Part shown: positions 14,022 to 39,137 of the stretch, in pieces
How positions within the stretch are numbered: the stretch's first letter is position 1
Layout of the letters: every line of letters begins with the position of its first letter
DNA from: Nitrospirota bacterium
GTDB taxonomy: Bacteria > Nitrospirota > Thermodesulfovibrionia > Thermodesulfovibrionales > UBA6898
Assembly: GCA_021814475.1 (NCBI GenBank)
Contig: JAKAIE010000011.1
Coordinates: 1 to 48,008, forward strand
Direction of reading: 5' to 3'
DNA: 48,008 nt
Notes under the pieces: generated by a model
Seen by the model: only the letters and a program-made list of their open reading frames with translations
Told to the model about the DNA's origin: nothing
Databases searched by the model: none
Position numbers and translations under genes: made by a program

Positions 14022-15431
14022 ATGATGCCACCACAGAAAATCCGGAAGCTGATACAGGATCTTTCACATCCCGATGCAGCCAAGAGGCGGAACGCCGCCG
14101 AGGAGCTTGCCGGCGGCGATGAAAGGGGCATTTACCCCCTGATACGCGCGCTGCGGGATGAGAGTCCCGGGGTACAGGACGCGGCCATGCGTTCGCTCAT
14201 CTCCATCGGAGGCGAAACGGTCGCGTACATGGTCCTCCCCCTTCTCCGCGAGGATTCGTTTCTGAGGAACACGGCGATCATCATGCTCCGGGATATCGGC
14301 CCGGTCTCCGTGCCTCTCCTCTACCCGCTGCTGAAGGACAAGGATGACGATGTGAGGAAATTCAGCATCGACCTGCTGATGGACATCAGGTTCGATGTAG
14401 ACCCCGGACAGATCGTGCCGATGCTCAGGGACCCGAACGCCAATGTGCGCGCGTCGGCAGCCAAGGCCCTCGGGGCGCTCGACTTCCGGGAAGCCATCCC
14501 CATGCTGGTCGAAGTCCTCGATGATGAGGAATGGGTCTGCTTCTCCTCCCTTGAGGCGCTCGGCGTGCTCGGGGACGAGGCCGCGGTCGGACCGATCATC
14601 GGCCTCCTGGGCAGCGGGTCCGGAACTATCCGGTATGCGGCGATCGAGACTCTCGGGAGGCTGGGTTTCCCGTCGGCGCAGCACGCCCTCGAGCAGCATA
14701 TGCTTCAGGCCGAAGATTTTGAAAAGACTGCAGCCCTGAAAAGCCTGCTCCAGATAGGTATTGTCCCCGCGGTGCCCGGTACGCTCGACCTCCTGCTTGC
14801 GATGTTCTCGGGCGGGGATTGGGACGAGCGGTTTATTGCGCTGAGAGGGTTTGCCGGGCTGAAGGATCCGCGCGCGGTCAAGTGCGTGATCGACGCAGGC
14901 GGCTCGCTTGAACCGTCGGACCCCGAGTGGGAGGACAGGCTGTATATGATCAGGAGTTCCCTGCGTGAGTTCGCCACATGCGAGGCGCTCGTAGAGACGC
15001 TGACCGATCCTTCCATACGGTACCGGGGCAGGGTGATCGCGATCGAGCTCATCGGCGACCTCCGCTGCGCGGCTGCGGTACCGCGGCTGATCAAATGCAT
15101 CGAGGTCGACGTGCGCGATGTACGGAGGGCGAGTATCAGGGCGCTTGCGGATATCAGAGACGAAGAATCGAAGTCTGCCCTTCTCGATGCGGTGGACGAC
15201 TACGACAGCCATGTGCGGAAGGCCGCTGTCGGCGCATTGGGGAAAATCGCCGACCCTGAAGCCTTCGCGCCGATCCTGGGCATGCTCGGGACGGAGCGGT
15301 ACCAGGATGTCCTGGAAGAGGCTATGCGGGCGCTTCTTGAGATCGACCGGGATGCGCTTGTCGCACGCATGGCCGGCTTCGATGAGCGCCTCCGGCTGAT
15401 CGCGGACCGCTGCCTGCAGGTGTCCTCATGA
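14022..15431 (+). CDS. HEAT-repeat protein of the chemotaxis cluster
   Basis: A 469-residue soluble protein built almost wholly of HEAT/PBS-lyase-type helical repeats of about 31-37 residues. Repeated units include DESPGVQDAAMRSLISIG, DPNANVRASAAKALGALD, DDYDSHVRKAAVGALGKI and similar segments, spread from residue 10 to 460. There is no signal peptide or membrane helix. Such repeats form curved protein-binding scaffolds. Its last four bases overlap the cheR start and a sigma-28 promoter precedes it, so it is probably a motility or chemotaxis factor; the partner is unknown. ATG 14025 is an alternative start. No ribosome site precedes either ATG. Confidence 0.85.
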   Translation: MMPPQKIRKLIQDLSHPDAAKRRNAAEELAGGDERGIYPLIRALRDESPGVQDAAMRSLISIGGETVAYMVLPLLREDSFLRNTAIIMLRDIGPVSVPLLYPLLKDKDDDVRKFSIDLLMDIRFDVDPGQIVPMLRDPNANVRASAAKALGALDFREAIPMLVEVLDDEEWVCFSSLEALGVLGDEAAVGPIIGLLGSGSGTIRYAAIETLGRLGFPSAQHALEQHMLQAEDFEKTAALKSLLQIGIVPAVPGTLDLLLAMFSGGDWDERFIALRGFAGLKDPRAVKCVIDAGGSLEPSDPEWEDRLYMIRSSLREFATCEALVETLTDPSIRYRGRVIAIELIGDLRCAAAVPRLIKCIEVDVRDVRRASIRALADIRDEESKSALLDAVDDYDSHVRKAAVGALGKIADPEAFAPILGMLGTERYQDVLEEAMRALLEIDRDALVARMAGFDERLRLIADRCLQVSS

Positions 15432-16249: not shown

Positions 16250-16642
16250 ATGAAGATTCTTGTCGTGGATGATTGCCAGACAACAAGGAAACTGTTGAGC
16301 CTCTATCTGAAATCCAAGGGGTATACCGTGGTGACCGCTGAAAACGGCCTCGACGCGATAGAAAAGCTGGGAACCGATACCATCAACCTTGTGCTGACCG
16401 ACCTGAATATGCCTTATATGGACGGGCTCGAACTGATAAAAAACGTGAAGGCCGACGCGAACCTTCAGCACATACCGATTATCATGGTGACGACGGAGGC
16501 CGATCCGGAGGAAAGGGAGAAGGCGATGTCGGCGGGGGCCTCGGCATACATGGTCAAGCCGGTGACCGCGGACAAGGTTTCCGAAAATATAGTGCTGATC
16601 CTGAAACAGATGTTCGGAAAGGGAGGACCTGACAATGTTTGA
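16250..16642 (+). CDS. Single-domain response regulator, CheY-like (first)
   Basis: A 130-residue receiver domain with the acidic pair VVDD (6-8), phospho-acceptor D51 in [12 protein letters not shown], conserved T in VTTEAD and K in [19 protein letters not shown] lies 8 bases before ATG 16250. It overlaps the next cheY by 8 bases. It is less similar to classical CheY than its downstream neighbour, so it may act as a phosphate sink or talk to another target. Confidence 0.92.
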
Positions 16643-17024
16643 TCTTAAAATGAAGATACTCGTGGTGGACGATTTTTCGACGATGCGGCGCATCGTGAAG
16701 AATATCCTCAAACAGCTCGGGTACGAAAATATCGAGGAGGCCGAAGACGGGGCCCAGGCATTTTCTAAACTCAAGAACGGCGGATTTCAGTTTGTCGTTT
16801 CCGACTGGAACATGCCGAATATGGACGGGCTGGAGCTGCTCCAGAAGATCAGGAGCGACGCCGAACTGAAGGAGCTCCCGGTCCTTATGGTGACGGCGGA
16901 GGCCGAGAAGGACAAGGTGATTACGGCGATCAAGGCCGGGGTGAACAACTATGTGGTCAAGCCCTTTACCGCAGAGATCCTGAAGGAGAAGATGGACAAG
17001 ATCTTCGAGAGACTGGGGAAATGA
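16635..17024 (+). CDS. cheY: Chemotaxis response regulator CheY
   Basis: A 129-residue protein very close to classical Che[21 protein letters not shown], phospho-acceptor D57 in [24 protein letters not shown], and K in YVVKPFTAE. It should be phosphorylated by CheA, bind the FliM N terminus, and be dephosphorylated by the CheZ part of the gene at 18894. GGAGG lies 10-14 bases upstream of ATG 16635, and the gene overlaps the previous one by 8 bases. ATG 16650 is a possible shorter start. Confidence 0.95.
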
Positions 17025-17066: not shown

Positions 17067-18878
17067 ATGGCCGATGAAATGGAAGAGATTGTAGCCGACT
17101 TCGTGACCGAGGCCGAGGAGTCCCTTGAAAAAATCGATCCCCTTTTCATCGAGCTGGAGACCAAAGGGCATGACAAGGATATTCTCCACGAGATCTTCAG
17201 GAGCATGCATACGATAAAGGGCGCGGCCGGTTTTCTCGGGTTCCAGCATATGGTGGATGTCGCCCACAAGGCCGAGAGCATTATGAAGAAGCTGCGCGAC
17301 GACGAGATGTCCGTCTCGACCCCTGTCATGGACGTGATCCTCAAGAGCGTGGATATGCTCAGACTCCTGCTGCAGCATATCAAGGTGAAGGACGGGAAAG
17401 AGGAGGACACCTCGGCGCTCCTTCAGGAACTCGACGCGACCCTCAGCGGCACGGCGCCCGCGGCGCCGGAAACTCCTGTTGTGTCGTCCCCGCCTCCTGG
17501 GCCGGCCGGGGCATCCGCCGGGGAGGAGGGCGCGGGGCCGGCTGCTGAACAGCCTGCGGGCGGTATTCCCGCAGGCAGGAGTGAGGTGAAAATTCCTGAG
17601 GTCGTACTGGACCAGCCTGCGGGGCCGGAGGGAGATGCTCCCGCGGTTGAGGACCGGGCTATTGCCGCCGCGCAGACAAAAGAGCCGAGTCAGACGCTGA
17701 GGATCGATGTCGGCAAGGTCGACAAGGTCATGGACCTGGCCGGGGAGATCGTCCTCGTCAGAAACCGCCTCATGAATATCGGCAACTACCTGGAGGAAAA
17801 ATACGGCGGCGACAGCTATGTCGAGAGCCTCATGGGCACGGTTTCGTTCCTCGACCTGGTAACCTCCGACATGCAGCTGGCAGTGATGAAGATGCGCATG
17901 CAGCCGCTGAAGAAGGTCTTCAGCAAGTTCCCCAGGCTAGTCAGGGACCTGTCCAACAGCATCGGCAAGGATATCGAACTGGTCATCACGGGCGAAGGGA
18001 CCGAAGTCGACCGGACGGTCATCGAACATATCGGAGACCCGATGGTCCATATTATCAGAAACTCCGTGGACCACGGACTCGAAACATCCGCGGAGCGGGT
18101 GAAAAAGGGCAAAAGCGCAAAGGGGCGTATATCGATCAATGCGTTCCAGCAGGGCAACCAGATCATCATAGAGGTCACTGACGACGGCAAGGGAATAGAC
18201 GTCGAGCGGGTGAAGAATAAGGCCCTTGAGAGGAGGCTGATTACCGAGGAAGAGGCCCAGCGGATGAACGACGAAACCGCGATCAACCTCATCTTCATGC
18301 CCGGTTTTTCGACGATGGATGTTGCGACGGAGCTCAGCGGCCGCGGGGTCGGGATGGACGTGGTCAAGACGAATATCTCGAAACTCAACGGGTACGTCGA
18401 GGTCAGGACCGAAAGGGGCGTCGGCACGACCTTCAGGATAAATATTCCCCTGACCCTGGCGATTATCCATGCCCTGATGGTCCGGTCTCTCACCAACCAG
18501 TATGCTATCCCGCTGGCGCCGATCGAGGAGACCCTCAAGGTTGCGGTGAAGGATATAGAGAACGTTTCCGGGCAGAAGGTTCTGGTGGTGAGGGGCAAGG
18601 TCCTCCCGCTTTTCGAGCTCTCCGACATTCTCGGCTACGGCGTCGGCGGGGATGCGGAATACCGCTATGTCATCGTCATCGCGATAGGCGACCGCCGCTT
18701 CTGCATCACGGTCGATGAGCTCCTCGGCCAGGAAGAGGTGGTGATCAAGACGGTCGAGGGCATCGACACGAACGCGGCGTACATCGTCGGGGCGACAATC
18801 ACGGGCGACGGGAAGGTGGTCCTTATCATCGATCTGGCGGGGATTTCGCGGAATGTCCTTGGCCTGAAGAAAATGTAG
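17067..18878 (+). CDS. cheA: Chemotaxis histidine kinase CheA (first, no P2 domain)
   Basis: A 603-residue kinase. The Hpt (P1) domain spans about 1-110 with phospho-acceptor H48 in RSMHTIKGAAGFLG. An Ala/Pro/Gly-rich linker (about 128-205) replaces the CheY-binding P2 domain, which I do not see. The dimerisation domain starts near 212 (RIDVGKVDKVMDLAGEIV). The ATPase domain has IIRNSVDHGLE, DDGKGID and LSGRGVGMDVV, and the CheW-like P5 domain runs from about 465 to the end. GAGGTG precedes ATG 17067. Neighbours (two cheY before, a cheW-cheZ fusion after) mark this as the main flagellar kinase. Without P2, CheY would have to dock elsewhere. Confidence 0.96.
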   Translation: MADEMEEIVADFVTEAEESLEKIDPLFIELETKGHDKDILHEIFRSMHTIKGAAGFLGFQHMVDVAHKAESIMKKLRDDEMSVSTPVMDVILKSVDMLRLLLQHIKVKDGKEEDTSALLQELDATLSGTAPAAPETPVVSSPPPGPAGASAGEEGAGPAAEQPAGGIPAGRSEVKIPEVVLDQPAGPEGDAPAVEDRAIAAAQTKEPSQTLRIDVGKVDKVMDLAGEIVLVRNRLMNIGNYLEEKYGGDSYVESLMGTVSFLDLVTSDMQLAVMKMRMQPLKKVFSKFPRLVRDLSNSIGKDIELVITGEGTEVDRTVIEHIGDPMVHIIRNSVDHGLETSAERVKKGKSAKGRISINAFQQGNQIIIEVTDDGKGIDVERVKNKALERRLITEEEAQRMNDETAINLIFMPGFSTMDVATELSGRGVGMDVVKTNISKLNGYVEVRTERGVGTTFRINIPLTLAIIHALMVRSLTNQYAIPLAPIEETLKVAVKDIENVSGQKVLVVRGKVLPLFELSDILGYGVGGDAEYRYVIVIAIGDRRFCITVDELLGQEEVVIKTVEGIDTNAAYIVGATITGDGKVVLIIDLAGISRNVLGLKKM

Positions 18879-18893
18879 CCCAAAGGAGGCGTC

Positions 18894-20090
18894 ATGCAGC
18901 AGTACATAGGGTTCAATCTCAATTCGAGCGAATATACCATCCCGATCCTCAAGGTGCGCGAGATCATCAGCATGCCGGTCATCACCCGCATGCCTCACGC
19001 GCCCGATTATATCGAAGGCGTTACAAACCTGCGGGGAGCGGTCATCCCCATCGTCAACCTCAAGAAACTCGTCCGCCTCGGTGACGGGGGAAACGCCTAC
19101 ACCAAGGTGATCGTGGTCTCCAGCGGCAGGATGACCTTCGGCATGCTGGTCGACGGCATTACGGGTGTCATCAACATCGATGAATCGGAGATTGAACACC
19201 CGGAAAAATTCCTGCAGGAGGACACCGGCCAGATCGAGGGGGTCGCCAAGCTGAACAACCGGCTCGTCGTTCTGCTCGACACGAAAAAACTCCTGCCTTC
19301 CGAGGACGTCAGTCTGTTCGAGGATATTGTCGTGGACGTGAAGGAGACAGAGGGCAGTGACCAGGTCGAGGTGACCAGGACCGTCCAGACGATGGCCGGA
19401 GAGGTCAAGGTGAAGGAGTTCCATGACGCGAAGGAGTTTTTCGAGAAGAAGGGTATAAGCCCGAACGACCCTCGGTATCTCCTCTTTGACGACATCATGA
19501 GCTTCCTCGACGCCCTGAACAGGGACGATCAGGAAAGGGCGGATGCGGCGATCGAGGAGATCATGAAGAAGGGACAGGGGGACCTTTTCAAGGAGGTCGG
19601 CAAGGTCACCCGGAAGATGCACGATTCGATCAAGAGCTTCAAGGAGGCGCTTGACCCCAAGCTGAAGGATATGGCCCAGTCCGAGATGCCGAACGCAATC
19701 GACCGGCTCCAGTTTGTCATCACCAAGACCGAAGAGGCGGCGAACAAGACGATGAGCATTGTCGAAAAACATATGCTGAGCATGGACGAACTGGCAGCGG
19801 CGATCCGGCAGGTTAAGGAACCGGCCGAGTCGGCCGAGTTCCTGAGAAAATACAAGAATATGCTGGAAGACGACCTTACGGAGCTGATCACCACCCAGTC
19901 GTTTCAGGATATTACCGGCCAGACTATCAAGAAGGTCATCACCCTCGTCGGCGAGATAGAGGAAGAACTCGTCCGGCTGATATCGACCTTTGGCGTGAAA
20001 ATGGAGGCCGGCCCCAAAGCGGAGGCGGAGTCTCACGAGCAGGTCTCGCAGTCGGATGTCGACGATCTCCTGAAGGATTTCGGCTTCTGA
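18894..20090 (+). CDS. CheW-CheZ fusion: receptor coupling plus CheY-P phosphatase
   Basis: A 398-residue fusion. Residues 1-140 form a full CheW domain (QQYIGFNLNSSEYTIPILKV, VTNLRGAVIPIVNLKKLV, NNRLVVLLDTKKLL). Residues about 175-398 are CheZ: a long helical hairpin whose active-site segment QSFQDITGQTIKKV has D339 and Q343, equivalent to E. coli CheZ D143 and Q147. The last residues, SDVDDLLKDFGF, match the CheZ C-terminal peptide that binds CheY-P. There is no internal stop, and the reading frame and base use are even throughout, so it is a real fusion. It should link kinase and receptor and put the phosphatase in the array. AAAGGAGG precedes the ATG. Confidence 0.92.
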   Translation: MQQYIGFNLNSSEYTIPILKVREIISMPVITRMPHAPDYIEGVTNLRGAVIPIVNLKKLVRLGDGGNAYTKVIVVSSGRMTFGMLVDGITGVINIDESEIEHPEKFLQEDTGQIEGVAKLNNRLVVLLDTKKLLPSEDVSLFEDIVVDVKETEGSDQVEVTRTVQTMAGEVKVKEFHDAKEFFEKKGISPNDPRYLLFDDIMSFLDALNRDDQERADAAIEEIMKKGQGDLFKEVGKVTRKMHDSIKSFKEALDPKLKDMAQSEMPNAIDRLQFVITKTEEAANKTMSIVEKHMLSMDELAAAIRQVKEPAESAEFLRKYKNMLEDDLTELITTQSFQDITGQTIKKVITLVGEIEEELVRLISTFGVKMEAGPKAEAESHEQVSQSDVDDLLKDFGF

Positions 20091-20190
20091 AAAACGGATC
20101 AAGACTTATCTGCACCAGGTCCTCCGACGCTTCGCGTCACCCTGCGCAGGGCAATAAAGAATCAGCAAACGGTCAAGGAGATCTGTCCGC

Positions 20191-21825: not shown

Positions 21826-21886
21826 CCTTCCCATTGGGAAGCGGGTAGATTATCAGTTTATCTCAATACTTCGCGGGAGGTTTGTG

Positions 21887-22651
21887 ATGAGGAAAATGTG
21901 TTTGGCCTTTGCAGTTTCTGCCGTGCTTCTTTTGGGCGCGGGCGGGATGTCGTCTGCAGGTGAAATAAAGATCGGAGCCGGCGCGGCGCCGACCGAAAAT
22001 GTGCTGAAGCCTGTCAGGGAGGCCTTTGAGAAGGCGACGGGCGACAGGCTCACCATCATATCGTCCGGCCCCAAGAATGCATTGATCGACCTGCAAAAGG
22101 GAAATGTGGACGCTGCTTCCGCGGGTCTCACGTTTGACGACTGGATGGGCCTGATGAAGAAGGAAGGCGCCGAGGTCAAAGACCCGGCCGCGTTTCAGCA
22201 GGTGACGATCGGGAAGGACAGTATCGTGGTGCTTCTGCAGAAAGACAATCCGGTCGGCAAGCTTACGAAGGAGCAGCTGAAGGGCATCTTCACGGGTAAG
22301 ATACAGAACTGGAAAGAGGTCGGCGGAAAGGATATGCAGATCATAGTGGTCTGGGGCAAACTCATCCCCGGGACAAATTCGCTGTTTGTCAAGAATATGC
22401 TCGATGGCGAGGCGGCTGCTAAAGAGGTCCTCGACGCGACGACCGCCGAGGACGTCAGGCAGAATGTGGCAGCAAATCCCGAGGCGATAGGCATCGGGCC
22501 TGCCGCGGTGGTTGACAGCACAGTGAAGTCTCCGGAGACGCCCGAGATCTCCAGGCCGATCATCCTGCTGACAAAGGGTAAACCTTCGCCCGCAGTGCAG
22601 AAACTGATCGATTTTGTAGGCGGCGAAGGGAAGAAATACATTAAACAGTAA
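21887..22651 (+). CDS. Periplasmic PstS-like substrate-binding protein
   Basis: A 254-residue secreted protein. I choose ATG 21887, not the adjacent GTG 21884, because GGGAGG lies 6 bases upstream of it. A signal peptide (about 1-23, ending SSAG) precedes the mature binding protein (EIKIGAGAAPTENVLKPVREAFEKA). Features of the phosphate/molybdate-like PBP family are LTKEQLKGIFTGKIQNWKEVGG and GTNSLFVKNMLDG. No ABC permease or ATPase gene is adjacent; it lies between two chemoreceptors. It may therefore present a ligand to a receptor, but that is inference. The substrate is unknown. Confidence 0.85.
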   Translation: MRKMCLAFAVSAVLLLGAGGMSSAGEIKIGAGAAPTENVLKPVREAFEKATGDRLTIISSGPKNALIDLQKGNVDAASAGLTFDDWMGLMKKEGAEVKDPAAFQQVTIGKDSIVVLLQKDNPVGKLTKEQLKGIFTGKIQNWKEVGGKDMQIIVVWGKLIPGTNSLFVKNMLDGEAAAKEVLDATTAEDVRQNVAANPEAIGIGPAAVVDSTVKSPETPEISRPIILLTKGKPSPAVQKLIDFVGGEGKKYIKQ

Positions 22652-25288: not shown

Positions 25289-25696
25289 ATGGCATTGATT
25301 GAATGGAAGGACGACTTGAGCGTGAATATCAGGATGATTGACGGTCAGCATAAGGAGCTGATCCGCATGATCAATGAACTCAATGAGGCGATGAAGGTGG
25401 GCAAGGGGCAGGAGGTGATCGGGAAGGTCCTGACCGGACTAATCGACTACACGAGGATGCACTTTGCGACCGAGGAGAGGTTGTTCGAAACACATAAATA
25501 TCCGGGGTATATAGCCCACAAGGGGGAGCATGACAAACTCACCGCCCAGGTGCTCGACCTGAAGAAGAAATTCGACAACAGGCAGGCCGTGATCACGGTC
25601 GAGATTATGAGCTTTCTGAAGGACTGGCTCCAGAAGCACATCATGAAGACCGATAAACAGTATTCGTCCTATCTGAACAACAAGGGCGTAATGTAG
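25289..25696 (+). CDS. Bacteriohemerythrin
   Basis: A 135-residue single-domain hemerythrin that binds O2 at a di-iron centre. All seven usual ligands are present at family spacing: H21 (DGQHKEL), H58 and E62 (MHFATEE), H77 and H81 (HKGEH), H117 and D122 (HIMKTD). It begins with the typical MALIEWKDDLSVNI. AGGAGA lies upstream of ATG 25289. The 150-base leader contains a palindrome and several small hairpins, including CCCAC-TTT-GTGGG at 25249-25261. Its place between chemoreceptors and cheB suggests oxygen sensing or delivery linked to motility, as known for hemerythrins in microaerophiles. Confidence 0.95.
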   Translation: MALIEWKDDLSVNIRMIDGQHKELIRMINELNEAMKVGKGQEVIGKVLTGLIDYTRMHFATEERLFETHKYPGYIAHKGEHDKLTAQVLDLKKKFDNRQAVITVEIMSFLKDWLQKHIMKTDKQYSSYLNNKGVM

Positions 25697-26912: not shown

Positions 26913-27383
26913 ATGGGCGCAGCCGCCGCGGGTTCGACAATACTGCAATTGGTGACCTTCAGGCTCGGGAGTGAGGAATACGCGATCGATATACTGAAGG
27001 TGCAGGAGATCAACAGGATGGTGGACATCACCTCGGTCCCCAACTCCCCTTCCGACGTCGAGGGCGTGATCAATCTGAGGGGCAAGGTGATCCCGGTGAT
27101 CAACCTCAGGAGAAAATTCGGCCTGGGGTCAAAAGAGGCTGACGCACAGTCGAGGATCATGGTCGTCGACGTCGGCATCACAGTGGGCCTGATCGTCGAT
27201 TCGGTATCAGAGGTCCTGAGGCTCTCTTCGGATACGGTCGAGCCCCCTCCCCCGATGACCGGCGGGATAGGGTCCGAATTCATCAGGGGCGTAGGTAAAC
27301 TCCAGGACAGGCTCCTGATACTCCTCGACATAGACAAGCTGCTCGGTCACGACGAGATGCACGCCGTGGCCCAGCTGGCATAA
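26913..27383 (+). CDS. cheW: Chemotaxis coupling protein CheW
   Basis: A 156-residue CheW that bridges receptors and CheA. Core motifs are [21 protein letters not shown], here read as [14 protein letters not shown], then [21 protein letters not shown] and [14 protein letters not shown], closing with [16 protein letters not shown] at 26901-26905 precedes ATG 26913. It leads a short sigma-28 unit with the following receptor gene, 19 bases downstream, and that unit ends at the terminator at 28990. Confidence 0.95.
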
Positions 27384-29216: not shown

Positions 29217-29423
29217 ATGCAGACTGTACAATGCTGGGACTTCATGAAATGCAGCAACCAGGTCAAACTGTCCTGTCCCGCCTTTATCCAGAACTCCGGC
29301 AGGAAATGCTGGCTCGTGGCAGGCACTCTTTGCGGCGGCACTGTCCAGGGCGATCATGCACAGAAGCTGCCGAGCTGCAAGCTCTGCGACTTCTGGAAGA
29401 AGATCAAATCCGGAGATATCTGA
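29217..29423 (+). CDS. Small stand-alone two-CW domain protein
   Basis: A 68-residue cysteine-rich protein. It has the two-CW pattern: CWDFMKCSNQ, then CPAF, then KCWLVAGTLCGG, and a closing CKLCDFWK. I recognise this as the module usually fused to chemoreceptors or other signalling proteins; here it is the entire protein. Seven cysteines in such a short cytoplasmic protein suggest metal binding or redox chemistry. GAGGGGG lies about 5-11 bases before ATG 29217. It is the first gene after a sigma-28 promoter and ends 5 bases before the soluble receptor-like gene. Confidence 0.82.
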   Translation: MQTVQCWDFMKCSNQVKLSCPAFIQNSGRKCWLVAGTLCGGTVQGDHAQKLPSCKLCDFWKKIKSGDI

Positions 29424-29428
29424 TCGCT

Positions 29429-31351
29429 ATGTCACTTATCGATTGGGCAACGTCTCTCTTCAGCAGGAGGAAAGCGCCTTCTGACGGCACTGTATCCGGC
29501 GGCGCAGTAACGGGCGCCGATGCCCTGCTGCCTGCTCCTGGCGTGGAGATATTCACGGAGTGGAATCCCGCGCTGCAGAGGATGGCGGAAGACCTGGAGT
29601 CTCTTGCCCGGGATACAGAGTCCGAGTTTATCGCTGTAGGCGACAAGCTCCAGCACTTTTCGTCACGTTTCAGCGAAAATTCCTCCAGTCTTTCCAAAAT
29701 CGTCGGCATTCTCGAGGGCGGTTCAGGCCTCGATGTCGGTTCCTTCAAGACCCTTTTTGAAACGGCGTACAGCGAGATAGAAAATTGCATCGTATCTATC
29801 TCGCGGGGCATGACCGACATGAACTCGCTTGCGTCCAGGATTAATGCCATTCTCGATCTGAGGGTTTATCTCAAGGACCTGTCGCGTTCCATTTCGATCC
29901 TCGGGATATACATCAGGATAGAGACCGCAAGGCTCGGAGACTCGGAGTTCAATACCATGACGGAGGTCGTCGACGAGTTGGCCCGGCAGATAGTCGGCGA
30001 GACAGAGGATATAGCCTCGGCGGCCGAAGAGACGAATGCGAATCTCGCTACGATCATGAACCGCATGGCGGAAAGTCTCGGCAAATTCGAAGAGGACCTT
30101 GCGATGGCCAAGCAGAGGGTCTCCGGCATCCTCGATGACATGGAGAGGATGCTCGGACAGGCTGGTTTCGTATGCGCAAGGATGGAGGGGCGGTCGTCCC
30201 AGATCATGCCGGAGATCGGAGAGGTGGTCTCCGCGCTTCAGTATCATGATATCTGCAGGCAGCAGATGGAGCATGTCGGCGAGGCCCTGCAAGACGTGAG
30301 GGATAAGTCTTCCCGGCTTGGCGGCCCGGAGGTGGGCCCGGAGGTCTGCCCGAATAAAGGCGAGAGGGATTCTCTCGGGCGGTGGATCTGCGACGCCCTG
30401 TCGATACAGATCCATCAGCTCAGGAAGATAGTCGGGACGATTGCGGATGCGGCGGACGGGATTTCGAGCCACCTGACCACCATCTCGGATCTGGGAGAGG
30501 CGCAGGTAGAGGATATAAGCACGATGCTTGAGGGGGAGGGCTCCGGGGGGCATCGCATCGAACAGATCAGCGACGAGATGAAGGGCCTCAGCGCCATCCT
30601 TCATGATGTGAAGACGGTGAACATGTCGATGATCGATTCGATCTCGGGTCTGAACACCAATGTCGGCAGGATGTCGACACAGGTCGCCAGGATCGAGGAG
30701 ATCAGCGACAGTATCAACCTGCTGGCCCTCAACGCCATTATCAAGGTGGCGAGGACCGGGGATGCGGGGAGAGGCCTCGGCGTCCTGGCCGACGAGATAC
30801 GGAAGCTTTCAGTTACTGCCAAGGAAGAGATCTCAAAGGGCGCCGGCTGCATACGGACTATCCTCGCCGGTTCAACGGATCTGAAGGATTCTCTATCCGG
30901 CGATCTTAAGGTGCAGGTCCGGACGACTGAGGAAGTGGGGCGGCGCACGAGTGCCGCTGTGGAGCAGCTTCTCGAAAAGGACAGGGAGATCATGGGCGCC
31001 CTTTCCCAGATAGCCGGCATTTCGAAGACGCTCGAGGGCGATATCTCCGCGCTGGTCTCAGGGATACGGTTTAACGACATTATCAGGACAAAGGCAGAGG
31101 TGATCATATCCGAACTTCAGTCGATGCTGGATGCGGCGGCGGAAAAAGGCATGGTCCCCGGTGCGGAGCCTTCATCAGCGGCCGGCGACGGGTTGCACGA
31201 ACTCGCCAAACGCTATACCATGGAAAGTGAGCGCGAAATCCATGAGGCGGTGCTGGCCGGGGGAGTCCGCGGCAGCCCGGTGCCGTCCGCTAGACTGGAA
31301 GCGGGCGGACAGGAAGAAGAGGAGCTTGGCGACAATGTCGAACTGTTCTGA
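29429..31351 (+). CDS. Soluble, degenerate receptor-like signalling protein with two hairpin modules
   Basis: I take ATG 29429 as the start (GGAG at 29412-29415), as frames further upstream overlap the two-CW gene. The 640-residue product has no membrane helix and no HAMP. Two regions resemble a chemoreceptor tip. One, near 429-465, reads INLLALNAIIKVARTGD then GRGLGVLADEIRKLS, with K439 where receptors have a conserved Glu. An earlier, weaker copy near residue 155 reads ILGIYIRIETARLGD. Each is followed by a similar distal motif: QYHDICRQQMEHV (D274, Q278) and RFNDIIRTKAEVI. The first resembles the CheZ active site D-x3-Q. The rest is coiled-coil. Role unknown; it probably binds CheA/CheW-type partners. 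Confidence 0.75.
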   Translation: MSLIDWATSLFSRRKAPSDGTVSGGAVTGADALLPAPGVEIFTEWNPALQRMAEDLESLARDTESEFIAVGDKLQHFSSRFSENSSSLSKIVGILEGGSGLDVGSFKTLFETAYSEIENCIVSISRGMTDMNSLASRINAILDLRVYLKDLSRSISILGIYIRIETARLGDSEFNTMTEVVDELARQIVGETEDIASAAEETNANLATIMNRMAESLGKFEEDLAMAKQRVSGILDDMERMLGQAGFVCARMEGRSSQIMPEIGEVVSALQYHDICRQQMEHVGEALQDVRDKSSRLGGPEVGPEVCPNKGERDSLGRWICDALSIQIHQLRKIVGTIADAADGISSHLTTISDLGEAQVEDISTMLEGEGSGGHRIEQISDEMKGLSAILHDVKTVNMSMIDSISGLNTNVGRMSTQVARIEEISDSINLLALNAIIKVARTGDAGRGLGVLADEIRKLSVTAKEEISKGAGCIRTILAGSTDLKDSLSGDLKVQVRTTEEVGRRTSAAVEQLLEKDREIMGALSQIAGISKTLEGDISALVSGIRFNDIIRTKAEVIISELQSMLDAAAEKGMVPGAEPSSAAGDGLHELAKRYTMESEREIHEAVLAGGVRGSPVPSARLEAGGQEEEELGDNVELF

Positions 31352-31380
31352 GACGAGCGGCGGGAAAAGGGGAAGCGGGC

Positions 31381-31722
31381 ATGAGGATTGAAATTGACGC
31401 GGACAAGACAGGGAGGATGACTCTCGAAGGCGATCTGACGATCCAGAGCATCGGGGAACTCAGGACCGGACTGCTGGAGGCCATGGAGGCGGTAGACGCC
31501 CTGGTCATCGACATGGGAATGGTGACAGGCATTGATATGGCATGCCTTCAGCTCTTCTGCTCGGCGCACAGGACCTATGTCCGGGAAGGCAAGAAGCTTT
31601 CGTTCAGACACAGGCTGGCGGACGACATACGCCGGGTCGTCGAGACTGCGGGATATTCGGCTAATGCGTGCGGAGCGGACGTCGCGGAAAAGACCTGTCT
31701 GTGGAACGGAGGAAGAGACTGA
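31381..31722 (+). CDS. STAS-domain protein lacking the phosphorylatable serine
   Basis: A 113-residue single STAS domain of the anti-anti-sigma/SpoIIAA superfamily: RMTLEGDLTIQSIGELRTGL, then ALVIDMGMVTGIDMACLQLF. Where SpoIIAA-type proteins have DSSG, with a serine phosphorylated by a partner kinase, this one reads DMAC, so control by serine phosphorylation is unlikely. It may serve as a structural adaptor. The start is ATG 31381, with AAAGGGGAAG upstream, and the stop overlaps the next cheY start by one base. Confidence 0.85.
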   Translation: MRIEIDADKTGRMTLEGDLTIQSIGELRTGLLEAMEAVDALVIDMGMVTGIDMACLQLFCSAHRTYVREGKKLSFRHRLADDIRRVVETAGYSANACGADVAEKTCLWNGGRD

Positions 31723-32087
31723 TGGCAAAGATTATCATGACGGTCGACGATTCGGCGAGCATACGCCAGATGGTCAGTTTCACGCTGAAGGGGGCGGGGT
31801 ATGATGTGATAGAGGCGGTCGACGGAAAGGACGCATTGGCAAAGGTCGACGGCGCCGGCATCAACATGGTGATCACTGATCTGAATATGCCGAACCTCGA
31901 CGGGATCGGACTCATCAGGCAGCTGCGGGCGAATCCGTCGATGAAGTTTGTGCCTATTATCATGCTGACGACCGAATCACAGGACTCGCGGAAGCAGGAA
32001 GGAAAGGCGGCCGGCGCCACCGGATGGATCGTCAAGCCCTTCAAGCCGGACCAGTTGCTGGCGGTCGTGAAGAAGGTCCTCGGATGA
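31722..32087 (+). CDS. CheY-like response regulator (third)
   Basis: ATG 31722 is chosen because GGAGGAAGA lies just upstream and it overlaps the STAS stop by one base. The 121-residue receiver domain has TVDDSASIRQMV, phospho-acceptor D53 in VITDLNMPNLDG, LTTESQD and K in WIVKPFKPDQL. The stop overlaps the cheA start (ATGA), so this CheY is likely made with, and phosphorylated by, the CheA that follows. It resembles the short CheY proteins found beside CheA in non-enteric clusters. Confidence 0.93.
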   Translation: MAKIIMTVDDSASIRQMVSFTLKGAGYDVIEAVDGKDALAKVDGAGINMVITDLNMPNLDGIGLIRQLRANPSMKFVPIIMLTTESQDSRKQEGKAAGATGWIVKPFKPDQLLAVVKKVLG

Positions 32088-34192
32088 GCGAAAATCATCG
32101 TCAGACATACAAGGAAGAGGCGGCCGAACTGCTGACGGAACTCGAGTCCTCCCTGCTGGAACTTGAAGAGACACCTGACAACATGGAGGTTGTCGGCAGG
32201 GTCTTCCGCGCGATGCATACGATCAAGGGCTCGGGCGCGATGTTCGGGTTCGACGATATCGCAGCCTTCACACATGAGGTCGAGACGGTCTTCGACCTTG
32301 TGCGCAACGGGAAGCTCCTGGTGTCGAAGGAGCTTGTCGACCTGACTCTGCGCGCCAGGGACTATATACGGGAACTGCTGGACGCCTCGGACAGCAGCCT
32401 GAAGGCCGACCCGGCCGTTGGCCAGGAGATCATTGCAGGGTTGAAGAGACTCGTCCCGGCCGCCGCGTCGACGGTCGCGCCGGCGTCGCCGAAGGCCCCG
32501 GCAGCCGGTGGCGGCGATGCCCGTGATACAGAGGCCACCTACCGCATACGGTTCAAGCCGTCCCCTGAGCTTTTTGTCACAGGCACAAACCCGCTGCCCC
32601 TTCTGAACGAACTGAGGGACCTCGGAAAATGCCATGTCATTGCGCATACAGACACAATACCGATGCTGGGCGAGATTGACCCCGAAGTCTGCTTTACCTT
32701 CTGGGATATTATCCTGACGACCAATAAAGGGGTCAATGCGATCAGGGACGTCTTTATCTTTGTCGAGGACAGCGCCGAACTGAAGATCGATCTAATCGAC
32801 GAGTCCTGGGGGGCCGGGGCCGCGTCTGAATACAAGCGCCTCGGCGATATCCTCATCGAGCGCGGAGACGTGAGGCCTGAAGACATCGAGAGGGTTCTCG
32901 GAAAGCAGAAAAGGCTCGGCGAACTCCTTGTCGATGAGGGGGTGGCTGCTCAGAGCCTGATCTCGTCGGCGCTCGCCGAGCAGAGGCACGTCAAGGAGGT
33001 CCGGGAAAAGCGGCAGACGGTTGAATCGGCCGCGAGCGTGCGTGTCCCGTCCGAGAGGCTCGACAGCCTGGTCAATCTCGTCGGAGAGCTCGTGACGGTC
33101 CAGGCCCGTTTGTCACAGACGTCTGCCAGGAGGAACGATGCCGAACTCGTCTCGATCGCCGAGGAGGTCGAGAGGCTGACCAGCGAGTTGAGGGACAAGA
33201 CCATGGGCATCAGGATGCTCCAGATCGGCACCTCTTTCAGCAAGTTCAAGAGGCTCGTACGCGACCTGTCGAAGGAACTCGGCAAGGAGATCGAGCTGAC
33301 CACGTCAGGGGCCGAGACAGAGCTCGACAAGACGGTCATAGACAAGCTGAACGACCCGCTTGTGCACCTCATCAGGAACTGCATCGACCATGGGATAGAG
33401 CTTCCCGAAGAGCGTGAGGGGGCCGGTAAGCCCCGGGCGGGCAACGTGCATCTGTCGGCGATGCATTCCGGTGCGCATGTGCTCATCGACATCGCCGACG
33501 ACGGCCGGGGGCTCGATGCCGGCGCCATCCGCGCGAAAGGGATCGAGAAGGGGCTTATAGCCCCGGACGCAACGCTTTCGGAAAAGGAGCTCTTCAGCCT
33601 GATACTCGCCCCGGGGTTCTCGACCGCGAAAACGGTCACGAATGTCTCGGGTCGCGGGGTGGGGATGGACGTGGTGAAGCGGACCCTTGACGAACTCAGG
33701 GGAGCGATCGAGATAAGCAGCTGGAAGGGGCAGGGCTCGACGATAAGTCTGAAGCTCCCCCTTACCCTCGCGATCATCGAGGGCCTGCTTGTCCGCATCA
33801 GGGACGACTTCTTCGTCCTCCCCCTCTCTGCCGTCGAGGAGTGTGTTGAACTTACTGCCCGGGATTCCGGGATGGCTCAGGGAAGGAATATTGCGAATGT
33901 CAGGGGGCAGATCGTCCCGTATATCCGTCTGCGTGAACAGTTCACGATAGACGGAACCGCCCCTGAAATCGAACAGATCGTGATCGTCAGGGTCGACGGC
34001 AACAGGGTCGGTTTTGTTGTCGACAGCGTGATAGGCGAGCACCAGACCGTGATCAAGAACCTCGGCAGGGCCTTCAGGCAGGTCGAGGGGATCTCGGGCG
34101 CAACGATCCTCGGCGACGGAACGGTTGCGCTGATCCTGGACACCGCACACCTCGTGAACGCAGCTACAATGCAGGAAAAGGAACTCATATAG
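32084..34192 (+). CDS. Second CheA kinase with tandem MshEN-like motif
   Basis: The start is ATG 32084, overlapping the cheY stop. The 702-residue product has an Hpt domain (1-120, H45 in RAMHTIKGSGAMFG), an Ala/Pro linker, and a P2-like domain (about 152-240, YRIRFKPSPELFVTGTNPL). Two 24-residue units follow, at 252-275 (RLGDILIERGDVRPEDI...Q) and 277-300 (RLGELLVDEGV...Q). Dimerisation (from about 318), ATPase (RNCIDHGIELPE, DDGRGLD, SGRGVGMDVV) and CheW-like domains complete it. Each 24-residue unit fits the RLGxxLLxxG...Q pattern that binds cyclic di-GMP in MshE. The layout differs from the first CheA, which lacks both middle parts. Confidence 0.93.
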   Translation: MSENHRQTYKEEAAELLTELESSLLELEETPDNMEVVGRVFRAMHTIKGSGAMFGFDDIAAFTHEVETVFDLVRNGKLLVSKELVDLTLRARDYIRELLDASDSSLKADPAVGQEIIAGLKRLVPAAASTVAPASPKAPAAGGGDARDTEATYRIRFKPSPELFVTGTNPLPLLNELRDLGKCHVIAHTDTIPMLGEIDPEVCFTFWDIILTTNKGVNAIRDVFIFVEDSAELKIDLIDESWGAGAASEYKRLGDILIERGDVRPEDIERVLGKQKRLGELLVDEGVAAQSLISSALAEQRHVKEVREKRQTVESAASVRVPSERLDSLVNLVGELVTVQARLSQTSARRNDAELVSIAEEVERLTSELRDKTMGIRMLQIGTSFSKFKRLVRDLSKELGKEIELTTSGAETELDKTVIDKLNDPLVHLIRNCIDHGIELPEEREGAGKPRAGNVHLSAMHSGAHVLIDIADDGRGLDAGAIRAKGIEKGLIAPDATLSEKELFSLILAPGFSTAKTVTNVSGRGVGMDVVKRTLDELRGAIEISSWKGQGSTISLKLPLTLAIIEGLLVRIRDDFFVLPLSAVEECVELTARDSGMAQGRNIANVRGQIVPYIRLREQFTIDGTAPEIEQIVIVRVDGNRVGFVVDSVIGEHQTVIKNLGRAFRQVEGISGATILGDGTVALILDTAHLVNAATMQEKELI

Positions 34193-34269
34193 CCATAAAG
34201 TGAAAAAACTACAGTAGATCGTTTTCATGAAGCGGAGCAATCATAACGAACCAAGGAGGGGAAAAAGCG

Positions 34270-34350
34270 ATGTGCGGAAATGGCAGAGAGGATGGTCCAG
34301 TTGTTAAACGGCGTGGCGTATACCCGAATACCAAAAGGAGAAATCAATGA
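34270..34350 (+). CDS. Possible 26-codon upstream ORF coupled to the receptor gene
   Basis: ATG 34270 is preceded by an excellent AAGGAGGGG (34253-34261). The frame runs 26 codons ([10 protein letters not shown]...) to a TGA that overlaps the receptor start as ATGA (34347-34350). The peptide is basic, with seven Arg/Lys in its second half. It could be a leader peptide whose translation tunes the receptor, or chance. The region 34193-34346 otherwise shows only a weak sigma-28-like match. Confidence 0.35.
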
Positions 34351-36062
34351 ACTGGTTTTATAATCTCAAGACAAGTGTCAAGCTGTTGGGAGGGTTTGTT
34401 CTGGTCGCTGTCATTGCGGGAGCAATAGGAATTGTTGGAATCAGTAAGATCAATGAGGTCAACCTGGCCGATACAAAGCTTTACGAGAAAGTAACAATTC
34501 CACTGAACCAAATTGATGAGATAGCTGCGCTGTTCCAGCGGATGCGCTGCAACCTGATGGAGATGTATGCGGCCGAGACAACCGAGAGACTGAATGACCG
34601 GGCGAAGGTTGCGGGTGAGCGTGATAAAGATATAGATGAGCTTTCTAAGCTTTTTGAAAAAACGATACTCACGGATGAAGGCCGGGCCGCGTTCAAGGAA
34701 TACCAGGATAGTTACAAGAAGTTTGACGATTACGAAAGAAAATATGCCGCGCTCCTCAACACCGGAAAAAAATCAGAGGCCCTTGCCCTTTGGAACGGTG
34801 AGATGGAAAAGGCGAGAAATGCCGTGCAGGGGAGTGTGGCTAGAATTCAGAAATCCAAGATAAGTATTGCAAAGCAGACCTCTGCTGACAATACGGCGTT
34901 GGCGAATTCGGCATCACGAATTATGATTATCTTTATCTGCTTGGGGGTTATCTTGGCAATATTTCTGGGAGTATTGATCTCCAGGATTATCAGTGTGCCG
35001 CTCAAAAGAGGAGTCGATGTTGCAGAGGCGATATCGAAAGGCGACCTCACGCAGACGATTGACATCAACCGGAAGGACGAAGTAGGCCAGCTTGCCGGCG
35101 CCATGAATGCAATGGTCGACAAACTCAAAAGTATAGTAGGCGACGTCAGGTCTGCTGCCGACAACGTGGCTGCTGGAAGCCAGCAGCTGAGCTCCAGCTC
35201 TGAGGAGATGTCCCAGGGCGCCACCGAGCAGGCAAGCTCGATTGAAGAGGTCTCTTCGTCGATGGAGGAGATGTCGTCGAATATCAAGCAGAATGCCGAC
35301 AACGCCCAGCAGACGGAGAAGATCGCGCTGAAGTCTGCGGCGGATGCGAGGGAGGGCGGCAAGGCGGTGACCGATACGGTGGTGGCGATGAAGGAGATCG
35401 CCGGCAAGATTTCCATCATCGAGGAGATCGCAAGGCAGACGAACCTGCTGGCGCTGAATGCGGCTATCGAGGCGGCGCGGGCCGGGGAGCACGGCAAGGG
35501 GTTCGCGGTCGTCGCCTCCGAGGTGAGGAAGCTGGCAGAGCGGAGCCAGGCTGCAGCCGGAGAGATAAGCCATCTGTCGACGTCGAGTGTCCAGGTTGCC
35601 GAGAAGGCGGGGGAGATGCTTGCCAAGCTTGTCCCGGATATTCAGAAAACCGCGGAACTGGTGCAGGAGATAAGCGGCGCCTCGAACGAGCAGAACACGG
35701 GCGCAGAGCAGATCAATCAGGCGATACAGCAGCTCGACCAGGTGATCCAGCAGAATGCCAGCGCCTCCGAAGAGATGGCCTCTACCGCGGAGGAACTCTC
35801 CTCGCAGGCCGAACACCTCCAGGAGTCTATCGCCTTCTTCAAGACGGGCGAGGAGACAAGGGTCACCAGAAGAGTCGCCAATACCGGATATTCGGCTAAA
35901 CTCCCGAATAAAACAAAGGTGGCCCATATCTCTCATGAGGGACGCAGAGGGGGCAGGGCCATAGCTGCCGGGGCGCCGGCGGGGACAAAGGCAGGGATCG
36001 CACTCGACATGGCCGGCGACGGGCATGCCGATGCAGACGACTCCGAATTCGAAAAGTTTTAG
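34347..36062 (+). CDS. Methyl-accepting chemotaxis protein with AT-richer sensor half
   Basis: A 571-residue receptor with membrane helices near 10-30 and 190-212. The four-helix-bundle sensor (about 32-188) is followed by HAMP (about 212-265) and a signalling domain with [20 protein letters not shown] and [18 protein letters not shown] flexible basic tail ends in DDSEFEKF, which may act as a tether for adaptation enzymes. Bases 34200 to about 35030 are clearly AT-richer, and use more A/T-ending codons, than the signalling half and the neighbouring genes. That suggests the sensor was exchanged. AGGAG precedes ATG 34347. Confidence 0.93.
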
Positions 36063-36074
36063 GGAGGTGGGGCG

Positions 36075-36569
36075 ATGAGCGTAACGGGAATAGTCGAGAC
36101 GACGCAATATCTGACATTCAAGCTCGGAGACGAGGTCTTTGCGGTGGATATATCCAAGGTCCGCGAGGTGCTGGACTTCACGTCTGTCACCAAGGTCCCC
36201 CGGACGCCCGATTTCATGCGGGGGGTCATCAACCTCAGGGGGAGCGTGGTTCCTGTCGTCGACATGCGCCTGAAGTTCGGTATGTCGCAGACCGAAAAGA
36301 CGGTCAATACCTGCATCATTATCGTCGAGGTCACCCTCGAAAATGAGACGACGGTGCTTGGCGCGCTGGCGGATTCGGTCCAGGAGGTGATCGACCTCGA
36401 GCCTGAGCAGATCGAGCCCGCGCCCCGCATAGGGACGAGGCTCAGGACGGAGTTTATCAGGGGGATGGGGAAGAAGGACGATCATTTTATCATCATCCTC
36501 GACATCGACAGGATCTTCTCGTCAGAGGAACTGGCGATGGTCCAGGACGCAAAAGAGAGCACCCCATAG
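36075..36569 (+). CDS. cheW: Chemotaxis coupling protein CheW (second stand-alone)
   Basis: A 164-residue CheW with TQYLTFKLGDEVFAVDISKV, FMRGVINLRGSVVPVVDMRL, and IILDIDRIFSSEEL. A central loop is one or two residues longer than in the CheW at 26913. GGGAGGTGG lies upstream of ATG 36075, and the gene starts 12 bases after the receptor stop, so the two are probably translated together. Which CheA it serves cannot be told, but it lies nearer the second CheA. Confidence 0.95.
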   Translation: MSVTGIVETTQYLTFKLGDEVFAVDISKVREVLDFTSVTKVPRTPDFMRGVINLRGSVVPVVDMRLKFGMSQTEKTVNTCIIIVEVTLENETTVLGALADSVQEVIDLEPEQIEPAPRIGTRLRTEFIRGMGKKDDHFIIILDIDRIFSSEELAMVQDAKESTP

Positions 36570-36659
36570 GACACACGGGACACGGGCCGTCAGGATGGCG
36601 GGATGACCTGCCGTCCGGCGGTCCGACGTTTGTCAGGAGAGGGTTTCGCATAATTCACC

Positions 36660-37535
36660 ATGGACGATAAAGAGAAGACCCATACCATGAGCACCTTTGA
36701 CGCGGTCATGTCGAACAAGGACTTCAGCCGCCTGCGCGAGGTCATCTACAGGGAATGCGGCATCAAGATGAACGAGTCGAAGAAGGTGATGCTCGAGGCG
36801 AGGCTCAGGAGAAGACTGAGGGACCTCTGCATGATCTCCTTTGCCGAGTACTGCGACTATCTCTTCAGTCCGAAAGGCATCGAAAGCGAGCTGTTCCAGA
36901 TGATAAACGAGGTGACGACGAACAAGACCGATTTTTTCAGGGAACCGCGGCACTTCGCATTTCTGACGGACAAGGCGGTGCCTGAACTGGCTGGCCTGCA
37001 CGGGGCTGGCACCAGTCGCAGGCTCATGGTCTGGTCGGCCGGCTGTTCCTCCGGAGAAGAACCCTATACTCTGGCGATGGTCCTGAGCGATATAGCCCTA
37101 CAGCAGCATGGTTTCGATTTCATGGTCCTTGCCAGCGATATATCCACCAAGGTCCTCGACAAGGCGGTCAAGGCGGTCTACGATATGGAGACGGTCGAGG
37201 CGGTTCCGGAGGCGATGAAGAAGAGGTATCTTCTGAAAAGCAAAGACAGGAGCAGGGGGCTCGTCCGCATCGCGCCGGAGTTGCGGGCCAAGGTCCGGTT
37301 CCGGAGGCTTAATTTCATGGAGGGGGACTTCGGCATGCGTGAGCCGATGGACATCATCTTCTGCAGGAATGTCATCATCTATTTCGACAGGCCTACCCAG
37401 GAACGGCTGCTGAACCGTCTCTGCGAGCACCTGGTCCCGGGGGGGTATCTTTTTATGGGGCATTCAGAGACCCTGAACGGACTCGATGTCCCGCTTGTGT
37501 CGGTAGGGCAGACCATCTACCGCAGGGCTAAATGA
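36660..37535 (+). CDS. cheR: Chemoreceptor methyltransferase CheR (second copy)
   Basis: A 291-residue methyltransferase with the helical N-terminal domain (EVTTNKTDFFREPRHFAFL) and the SAM-binding domain (LMVWSAGCSSGEEPYTLAMV, VLASDISTKVLDKA, DIIFCRNVIIYFDR, VPGGYLFMGHSETL). The start is uncertain: AGGAGAGG at 36635-36642 is too far from ATG 36660, and ATG 36690 (MSTFDAVMSN) is possible. Its stop overlaps cheD by 4 bases. The 90-base gap after cheW is GC-rich with imperfect repeats but no clear signal. Confidence 0.95.
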   Translation: MDDKEKTHTMSTFDAVMSNKDFSRLREVIYRECGIKMNESKKVMLEARLRRRLRDLCMISFAEYCDYLFSPKGIESELFQMINEVTTNKTDFFREPRHFAFLTDKAVPELAGLHGAGTSRRLMVWSAGCSSGEEPYTLAMVLSDIALQQHGFDFMVLASDISTKVLDKAVKAVYDMETVEAVPEAMKKRYLLKSKDRSRGLVRIAPELRAKVRFRRLNFMEGDFGMREPMDIIFCRNVIIYFDRPTQERLLNRLCEHLVPGGYLFMGHSETLNGLDVPLVSVGQTIYRRAK

Positions 37536-38047
37536 GGTCTCTGGTCAGCGGCCTTCCGCTTCTCTATCTCAAGCCCGGCGAGTTTATTATCCGGAGTGAG
37601 CCGGCTGCCGTGGCCACGGTCCTCGGGTCCTGCGTCTCAGTGACCATGTTCAGCCCGGGATTCAGGGTCGGCGCGATCTGCCACGGGCTGCTCCCGCAGT
37701 GCAGGGACGCGGGGCCCTGCAGAAATGAGTGCGGCGAGGGCTTCCGGTATGTCGATTGCTCGGTACTGCTGATGATAGACCGCTTCAGGGAGTACGGTAT
37801 CGGAGGCAGCGAGATAGAGGCGAAGGTCTTCGGCGGGTCCGACATGTATGACCCGCGCGTTCCAGGTGGGGGCGGGGCCACGGTGGGCAGTATGAATATT
37901 GCGTCCGCGCAACGGATACTCGGCGCCGAAAACATAAAGATCGTCAGTTCCGACACAGGAGGCAGGCAGGGGCGAAAAATCATCTTTCACCCGCATACGG
38001 GAGACGTGTTTCTGAAGAGGGTGAGAAGGGCGGAGAGCAGACAATGA
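37532..38047 (+). CDS. cheD: Chemoreceptor glutamine deamidase CheD
   Basis: A 171-residue CheD, which deamidates receptor glutamines to allow methylation. The catalytic Cys is C34 in VLGSCVSV and the catalytic His is H51 in [10 protein letters not shown]; the 17-residue spacing matches CheD of Thermotoga (C27, H44). FGGSDMY and the [20 protein letters not shown] region are also typical. The start overlaps the cheR stop (ATGA). It is the only CheD in the window and probably serves all receptors. CheC is absent. Confidence 0.95.
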
Positions 38048-38063
38048 TGGCGGGACCGGACAT

Positions 38064-39137
38064 ATGAGCGCACGGAAGAAGATTTCAGTCCTTATCGTGG
38101 ATGATTCCGCTGTTGTGAGGCAGACCCTCTCCGAGATATTGACGTCGGACCCGGAGATCGAGGTGATGGCCACTGCCGCCGATCCTTTTATCGCAGCCGA
38201 ACGGCTGAAGGAGGCCGTGCCGGACGTCATCACCCTGGATGTGGAAATGCCGCGAATGGACGGCCTCACCTTTCTGCACAAAATCATGAGTCAGCATCCC
38301 ATACCTGTGGTGATGTGTTCGAGCCTTACGGAAGAGGGCTCAGAGACGGCCCTGCGAGCCCTCGAATACGGCGCGGTCGAGATCATACAGAAGCCGAGGA
38401 TGGGGACAAAGCAGTTCATCGAGGAATCGAGGATGCGCATCTGCGACGCGGTGAAGGCGGCTGCGGTCGCCAGGGTCAGGCCGATCTCGAAGATACCCCT
38501 TAAGGTGACGCCGAAGCTCACGGCGGATGCGATCATCGAAAAACCGTCGTCCAGGGCGATGGTGCAGACGACGGAAAAGGTCGTGGTGGTCGGGGCATCG
38601 ACCGGGGGGACAGAGGCCCTGAGGGTATTTCTGGAGATGATGCCCCCCGATGCGCCGGGGATCGTGATTGTCCAGCATATGCCGGAGAATTTTACGACCG
38701 CATTTTCGAAACGCCTGGACGGCCTGTGCGCCATCACCGTGAAGGAAGCGGCGGACAATGATTCGGTGATCAGGGGCAGGGCGCTGATCGCGCCCGGGAA
38801 CCGGCACCTGCTTCTGAAGAGGAGTGGTGCGCGCTACTACGTCGAGATCAAGGACGGTCCTCTCGTGTCGCGCCACAGGCCCTCCGTTGATGTCCTTTTC
38901 CGTTCGGCCGCGCGCTACGCCGGGAAGAACGCCGTGGCTGCTATCATGACCGGGATGGGCGACGACGGCGCCAGGGGCATGCAGGAGTTGAAGCAGGCGG
39001 GGGCCTATACGATCGCGCAGGACGAGGCCTCGTGCGTGGTCTTCGGAATGCCGAAAGAGGCGATAAAACTTGGGTGTGTCGACAAGGTGACTCCACTTGA
39101 AGCGATCGCCTCTGTTGTCCTCCGGGAGGCCCGCTGA
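38064..39137 (+). CDS. cheB: CheB methylesterase, first of a tandem pair
   Basis: A 357-residue CheB: receiver with [11 protein letters not shown] and phospho-acceptor D59 in [11 protein letters not shown]; esterase with Ser in [10 protein letters not shown], His in VQHMPENF and Asp in [10 protein letters not shown]. All catalytic residues are present. It is followed after 2 bases by a full-length paralogue. The esterase halves of the two agree much more than the receiver halves, and one 32-base stretch (39015-39046) is identical in both genes. GAC-rich spacing of 16 bases separates it from cheD. Confidence 0.95.

Follow-up and report, generated by a model that had tools for sequence, protein, structure and literature searches.

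A conserved CheW-CheZ fusion protein in the flagellar chemotaxis cluster of Nitrospirota, a probable CheY-P phosphatase and component of the receptor array

The window analysed here is one entire contig (48,008 bases) from a Thermodesulfovibrionales (Nitrospirota) draft genome of 3.15 Mb. It contains the flagellar genes fliL, fliM, fliR, flhB, flhA, flhF, flhG and fliA. These are followed, in order, by a HEAT-repeat gene, cheR, two cheY genes, cheA, a gene in which CheW and CheZ are joined, an MCP gene, a gene for a solute-binding-type protein, a second MCP gene, and genes for hemerythrin, CheB, CheW and a further MCP. The features central to the analysis are listed below.

16635..17024, + strand: motor-type cheY; the product closely resembles that of E. 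coli and is the probable substrate
17067..18878, + strand: cheA, directly 5' of the fusion gene, with Hpt, dimerisation, ATPase and CheW-like domains
18884..18889, + strand: Shine-Dalgarno sequence AGGAGG of the fusion gene, read from the sequence four bases 5' of the ATG
18894..20090, + strand: CheW-CheZ fusion gene, 398 codons plus stop, one unbroken frame from ATG to TGA
18894..19313, + strand: CheW domain, residues 1-140 (Pfam, phmmer and predicted fold)
18960..18962, + strand: E23, equivalent to E. coli CheW E38 (alignment to 2ho9), invariant in 13 aligned fusions
19032..19034, + strand: R47 of the NLRG motif, equivalent to E. coli CheW R62 (alignment to 2ho9), invariant in 13 aligned fusions
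19314..19505, + strand: linker, residues 141-204, with a VEV..T(M/I)GGE..VKE segment conserved in the alignment
19506..20087, + strand: CheZ part, residues 205-398, with a shortened hairpin (Pfam, phmmer, hairpin lengths and AF2)
19908..19910, + strand: D339, equivalent to catalytic D143 of E. coli CheZ, D in 47/47 fused CheZ
19920..19922, + strand: Q343, equivalent to catalytic Q147 of E. coli CheZ, Q in 47/47 fused CheZ
20049..20087, + strand: putative CheY-binding peptide QSDVDDLLKDFGF, C-terminal residues 386-398, which aligns with E. coli SQDQVDDLLDSLGF
26913..27383, + strand: separate ordinary cheW in the cluster of the fusion gene

Only 15 bases separate the end of cheA from the ATG of the fusion gene. 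In families f3 and f20, the fusion gene lies exactly between cheY and cheA, the slot that is occupied by cheZ in the Gammaproteobacteria, where it comes after flhG-fliA-cheY. The HEAT-repeat protein (14022-15431) is encoded between fliA and cheR, and a similar one is found 5' of cheR in Candidatus Magnetomicrobium (L064). The genes for the solute-binding-type protein (21884-22651) and hemerythrin (25289-25696) sit among the MCP genes, and the solute-binding gene is found again beside the fusion gene in several relatives. The window also holds a second chemosensory cluster (29231-39137), with an MCP-like gene, a receiver (31668-32087), a second CheA (32024-34192), an MCP (34347), CheW (36075) and CheR (36660), with CheD and CheB probably following.

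The first-pass annotation of this DNA had described an intact CheW domain continuing in frame into an intact CheZ, and both domains were detected far above their cut-offs. CheW is matched at residues 3-136 with 124.3 bits (Pfam PF01584, cut-off 23.5), and CheZ from residue 230 to the C-terminus, in two pieces, with 124.6 bits (PF04344, cut-off 30.7). In phmmer comparisons, E. coli CheW (2ho9) matches the CheW part at 4e-23, and E. coli CheZ, taken from the solved structure 1kmi, matches the CheZ part at E 1.6e-12. The catalytic pair is found in the context FQD339ITGQ343, and the protein ends in SDVDDLLKDFGF. A Pfam search of the fusion protein gave no match to Response_reg, so that it does not have the architecture of CheV.

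The frame is continuous in many independently assembled genomes, and the frameshift between the two domains that the annotation had named as fatal to its reading is not borne out. Between the window and a congener (G002), dN/dS is 0.055 in CheW and 0.022 in CheZ, dN in the linker is a low 0.047, and GC3 is uniform throughout the gene, near 0.80. Because the frame is conserved in many genomes, dN/dS is low and GC3 is uniform, both a frameshift or assembly artefact and a chance ORF can be excluded; it is the antisense frame of 721 codons (17937-20102) that is the chance one, the domains being in the sense frame. In one draft relative, a fusion at a contig edge (L006, G013:C195) has an in-frame TAG between the domains, which may be an error or a real split. 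The CheW-CheZ fusion is thus a real and conserved protein, and a new domain architecture made from two known families; no description of it as a conserved class-wide form was found in the open-access literature searched.

The annotation had treated the fusion as a single case, whereas it is the rule in the window's class. The search for CheW+CheZ architectures across genomes that it had recommended, conducted with CheW and CheZ profiles built here, found 47 distinct loci at which a single frame encodes both domains, all with the D/Q pair. Full-length fusion proteins, with 91 to 42 % identity, are present in 14 of the 41 relatives searched, G013 included. Flagellar FlhA is present in 16 of the 41, comprising these 14 and two further relatives (G030 and G031) in which no CheZ of any kind was found, and no fusion was found in any of the 25 relatives without FlhA. 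The best match to the window's CheA in relatives without CheZ scores 344 bits, against 1293 bits for the self-match, and is therefore not a close one. Since the fusion co-occurs with FlhA and the relatives lacking CheZ also lack a close CheA match, it can be assigned to the flagellar chemotaxis set, and it is carried by this bacterium and by almost all of its flagellated relatives examined.

Within the window's genome, the CheZ of the fusion is the only CheZ. Among the matches listed from 296 genomes of the phylum, CheZ is encoded by open frames of 395-477 codons in the window's class and by frames of about 200-300 codons, for free CheZ, in the Nitrospira-like family f27. Every complete CheZ frame checked in the window's class is fused, and fusions were also detected in three further families outside it. 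Among the matches listed in a scan of named genomes, all Nitrospirota have complete fusions except for one locus cut by a contig end (L067); no fusions were found among the Pseudomonadota listed, all of which have free CheZ, and the Gammaproteobacteria found likewise all have free CheZ. One CheZ from family f28 (L169 in G066, 335 codons) has about 150 N-terminal residues that give no CheW match and include PEGVSGMKG-like pieces; this stretch is possibly a decayed CheW.

Mapping of the fusions onto a phylogeny, also proposed in the annotation, yielded two types in place of one clade. In trees made by a quick method, with long branches and few columns, a single clade of all fused CheZ was rejected by the AU test (p 0.00015) but a single clade of the class fusions was not (p 0.31), and fused CheZ therefore comes in two types. 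Type I comprises the fusions of the window's class together with one member in f23 (L154). Type II comprises those of families f20 and f26, and is located near the free Nitrospira CheZ. In most of the class, the CheW domains of the fusions form groups separate from ordinary CheW proteins, whereas those of type II fall among the latter. Judging from these trees, it is possible that the fusion was gained twice, or that it was gained once long ago with losses toward Nitrospira and the Gammaproteobacteria. Free gammaproteobacterial CheZ sequences fall inside fused type I CheZ, beside L036 and L041 (family f14); they may derive from a fused ancestor, or the root may lie elsewhere.

The CheW part resembles known CheW proteins (PF01584; 2ho9, 6s1k) in having the full domain and fold and the equivalents of E38 and R62, and differs from them in carrying a phosphatase and in forming a group distinct from the ordinary CheW proteins of the genomes that encode it. 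In E. coli CheW, the E38-R62 salt bridge aligns the receptor and kinase sites and matters for CheW function (PMC3828127). Because the genome also encodes separate CheW proteins, the fusion can make up no more than part of the coupling protein. The presence of such proteins in the same cluster could even render the fused CheW dispensable for coupling, and some fused CheW domains, such as that of L048, have diverged. On that basis, the protein might be soluble CheZ whose added N-terminus only assists stability or folding, the CheW domain having no meaningful role in the array. However, E23, R47 and many other interface positions do not vary among the 13 aligned fusions, the dN/dS of the CheW part is 0.055, and the domain has been kept across the whole class, all of which make an idle appendage unlikely.

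The CheZ part shares with E. coli-type CheZ (PF04344, 1kmi) the catalytic pair, the C-terminal CheY-binding peptide, the helical hairpin and, in relatives, adjacency to cheY and cheA, but it is fused behind CheW, and in the window group the hairpin tip with the CheA-short site is missing. Retention of D339/Q343 and of the C-terminal peptide, both claimed in the first-pass annotation, was found throughout the alignment of fused CheZ: all 47 have the D and the Q, and a Q..(V/I/L)(D/E)..L..(F/L)GF peptide is kept in nearly all. The hairpin is less uniform. E. coli CheZ docks on CheA-short via an aromatic pair, W97/F98, at the hairpin apex (PMC7750401), and the apical anchoring is also described in PMC1447658. 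The distance from a conserved VE to the catalytic D is 48 residues in the window group versus 69 in E. coli and in every gammaproteobacterial CheZ aligned; it is 48-65 residues in other fusions and 57-58 in free Nitrospira-type CheZ. With a hairpin 21 residues shorter in the alignment, the window's CheZ therefore lacks the W97/F98 apex, a tip that defines the enteric docking mode and not membership of the CheZ family. Docking of the enteric type on CheA-short is unlikely for a protein of this sequence, and, given the deletion, another tether becomes plausible.

A short hairpin does not mark the fusions alone, since free Nitrospira-type CheZ is short as well. Alpha- and delta-proteobacterial CheZ has no CheA-short site either (PMC7750401). 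Given both observations, the loss of the apex is consistent with the fusion but is no proof of what the fusion is for. The suggestion in the annotation that CheZ would be held at the array by fusion instead of by CheA-short is well supported by the anatomy of the locus, with functional residues in both domains, a position beside cheA within the flagellar che operon and a deleted docking tip, although the tip is not an argument specific to fusions.

An AlphaFold2 model was made of the single chain from an alignment of 36 rows, with a pLDDT of 77 and a pTM of 0.42 for the whole. The CheW domain is confidently predicted, with pLDDT above 80 in every block. The linker is predicted to contain beta strands (145-151, 157-166 and 169-178) with pLDDT 57-80, and the CheZ part is predicted to form two long antiparallel helices (255-305 and 311-365), a disordered tail and, at low confidence, a terminal helix (386-395). 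A Foldseek search with the model retrieved CheW structures at once (E 3e-14 for the E. coli CheW in 6s1k); CheZ 1kmi was reached only at E 0.48, and the CheZ arrangement is weakly predicted.

A further possibility is that the fusion supplies free CheZ and CheW separately, via an internal start or cleavage. A GAGGAG motif does lie three bases 5' of the in-frame ATG of M224 (window 19545-19565), just before the Pfam CheZ match. Across the 47 fusions, however, no internal start with a Shine-Dalgarno-like motif occurs at a common position, and 46 of the 47 have such a motif 5' of the CheW start. An internal start for free CheZ was rejected as not conserved, and separate supply of the two proteins is highly improbable.

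A known protein of similar design is CheV, a CheW fused to a phospho-module (PMC8396549). Both proteins couple CheW to a module concerned with the phosphoryl signal, a receiver domain in CheV and a CheZ phosphatase here. By analogy, the fusion could be a regulated coupling protein, in which CheY-P bound to the CheZ part alters kinase coupling as a feedback and phosphatase activity is secondary; the linker, which is conserved and predicted to be structured, would suit such a role. It fits poorly with a catalytic D/Q pair kept in 47 of 47 fusions, with the lack of a second CheZ in the genome, and with the lack of any CheC match in four fusion-bearing relatives (in a search for CheC only), and is improbable as the main function.

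The reading preferred here, and a likely one, is that the fusion serves both as a CheY-P phosphatase and as part of the array. In the flagellar array, the CheW domain would fill a share of the CheW sites that lie between the receptors and CheA P5, and the CheZ part would dimerise via its helical hairpin. The C-terminal peptide would grip CheY-P, Q343 would be inserted and D339 would orient the substrate, so that hydrolysis of the CheY phosphoryl group is accelerated. CheY-P would then be destroyed at its place of production, and the physiological effect would be rapid termination together with a CheY-P level that is uniform at a distance. The fusion probably serves to erase the signal at its source, the receptor array, and the resulting role would be that of CheA-short-bound CheZ in E. 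coli. In the enteric complex, as proposed here, CheZ is placed in the receptor cluster (PMC1447658, PMC7750401), but the link is non-covalent and relies on the hairpin tip and on a product translated from a start within cheA.

Several observations count against this explanation. With CheZ as a dimer, two CheW domains would have to be accommodated in the array geometry, and the CheZ arrangement in the model is weak. The window's genome encodes CheX (contig 37) and a protein resembling CheC/CheX (contig 98), the free CheZ of the f27 type has a short hairpin too, and the flagellated G030 and G031 have no CheZ.

A more elaborate form of an array role can also be considered. No P2 domain was matched by Pfam in the window's CheA, in which a P/A-rich stretch at about residues 127-205 takes the place of P2, or in the other CheA proteins adjoining fusions, while E. 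coli CheA gives a match; this absence is weak evidence, because P2 models are insensitive and miss many domains (PMC10542144). The fusion might then be a phosphatase that builds the array, its dimer tying two CheW positions together and its C-terminal peptides holding CheY for a CheA without P2, so that one protein would be coupling protein, CheY dock and CheY-P sink. Such a triple role is doubtful. At four gammaproteobacterial loci (L075, L078, L111 and L131), the CheA encoded 3' of free cheZ has repeated DEITDDEFEALLDQLHGKG-like segments in place of P2, and these are reminiscent of the C-terminal CheY-binding peptide of CheZ.

Work on chemotaxis has long asked whether CheZ has to be located at the array, and for what reason, a question that bears on CheY-P gradients, noise and adaptation. 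If the fusion is indeed a phosphatase housed in the array, evolution would here have made the link between CheZ and the array permanent and kept it across a class, in type II perhaps for a second time. It would also be a test system provided by nature: the proportion and the location of phosphatase and scaffold are fixed, and cutting the two domains apart would allow their functions to be easily separated.
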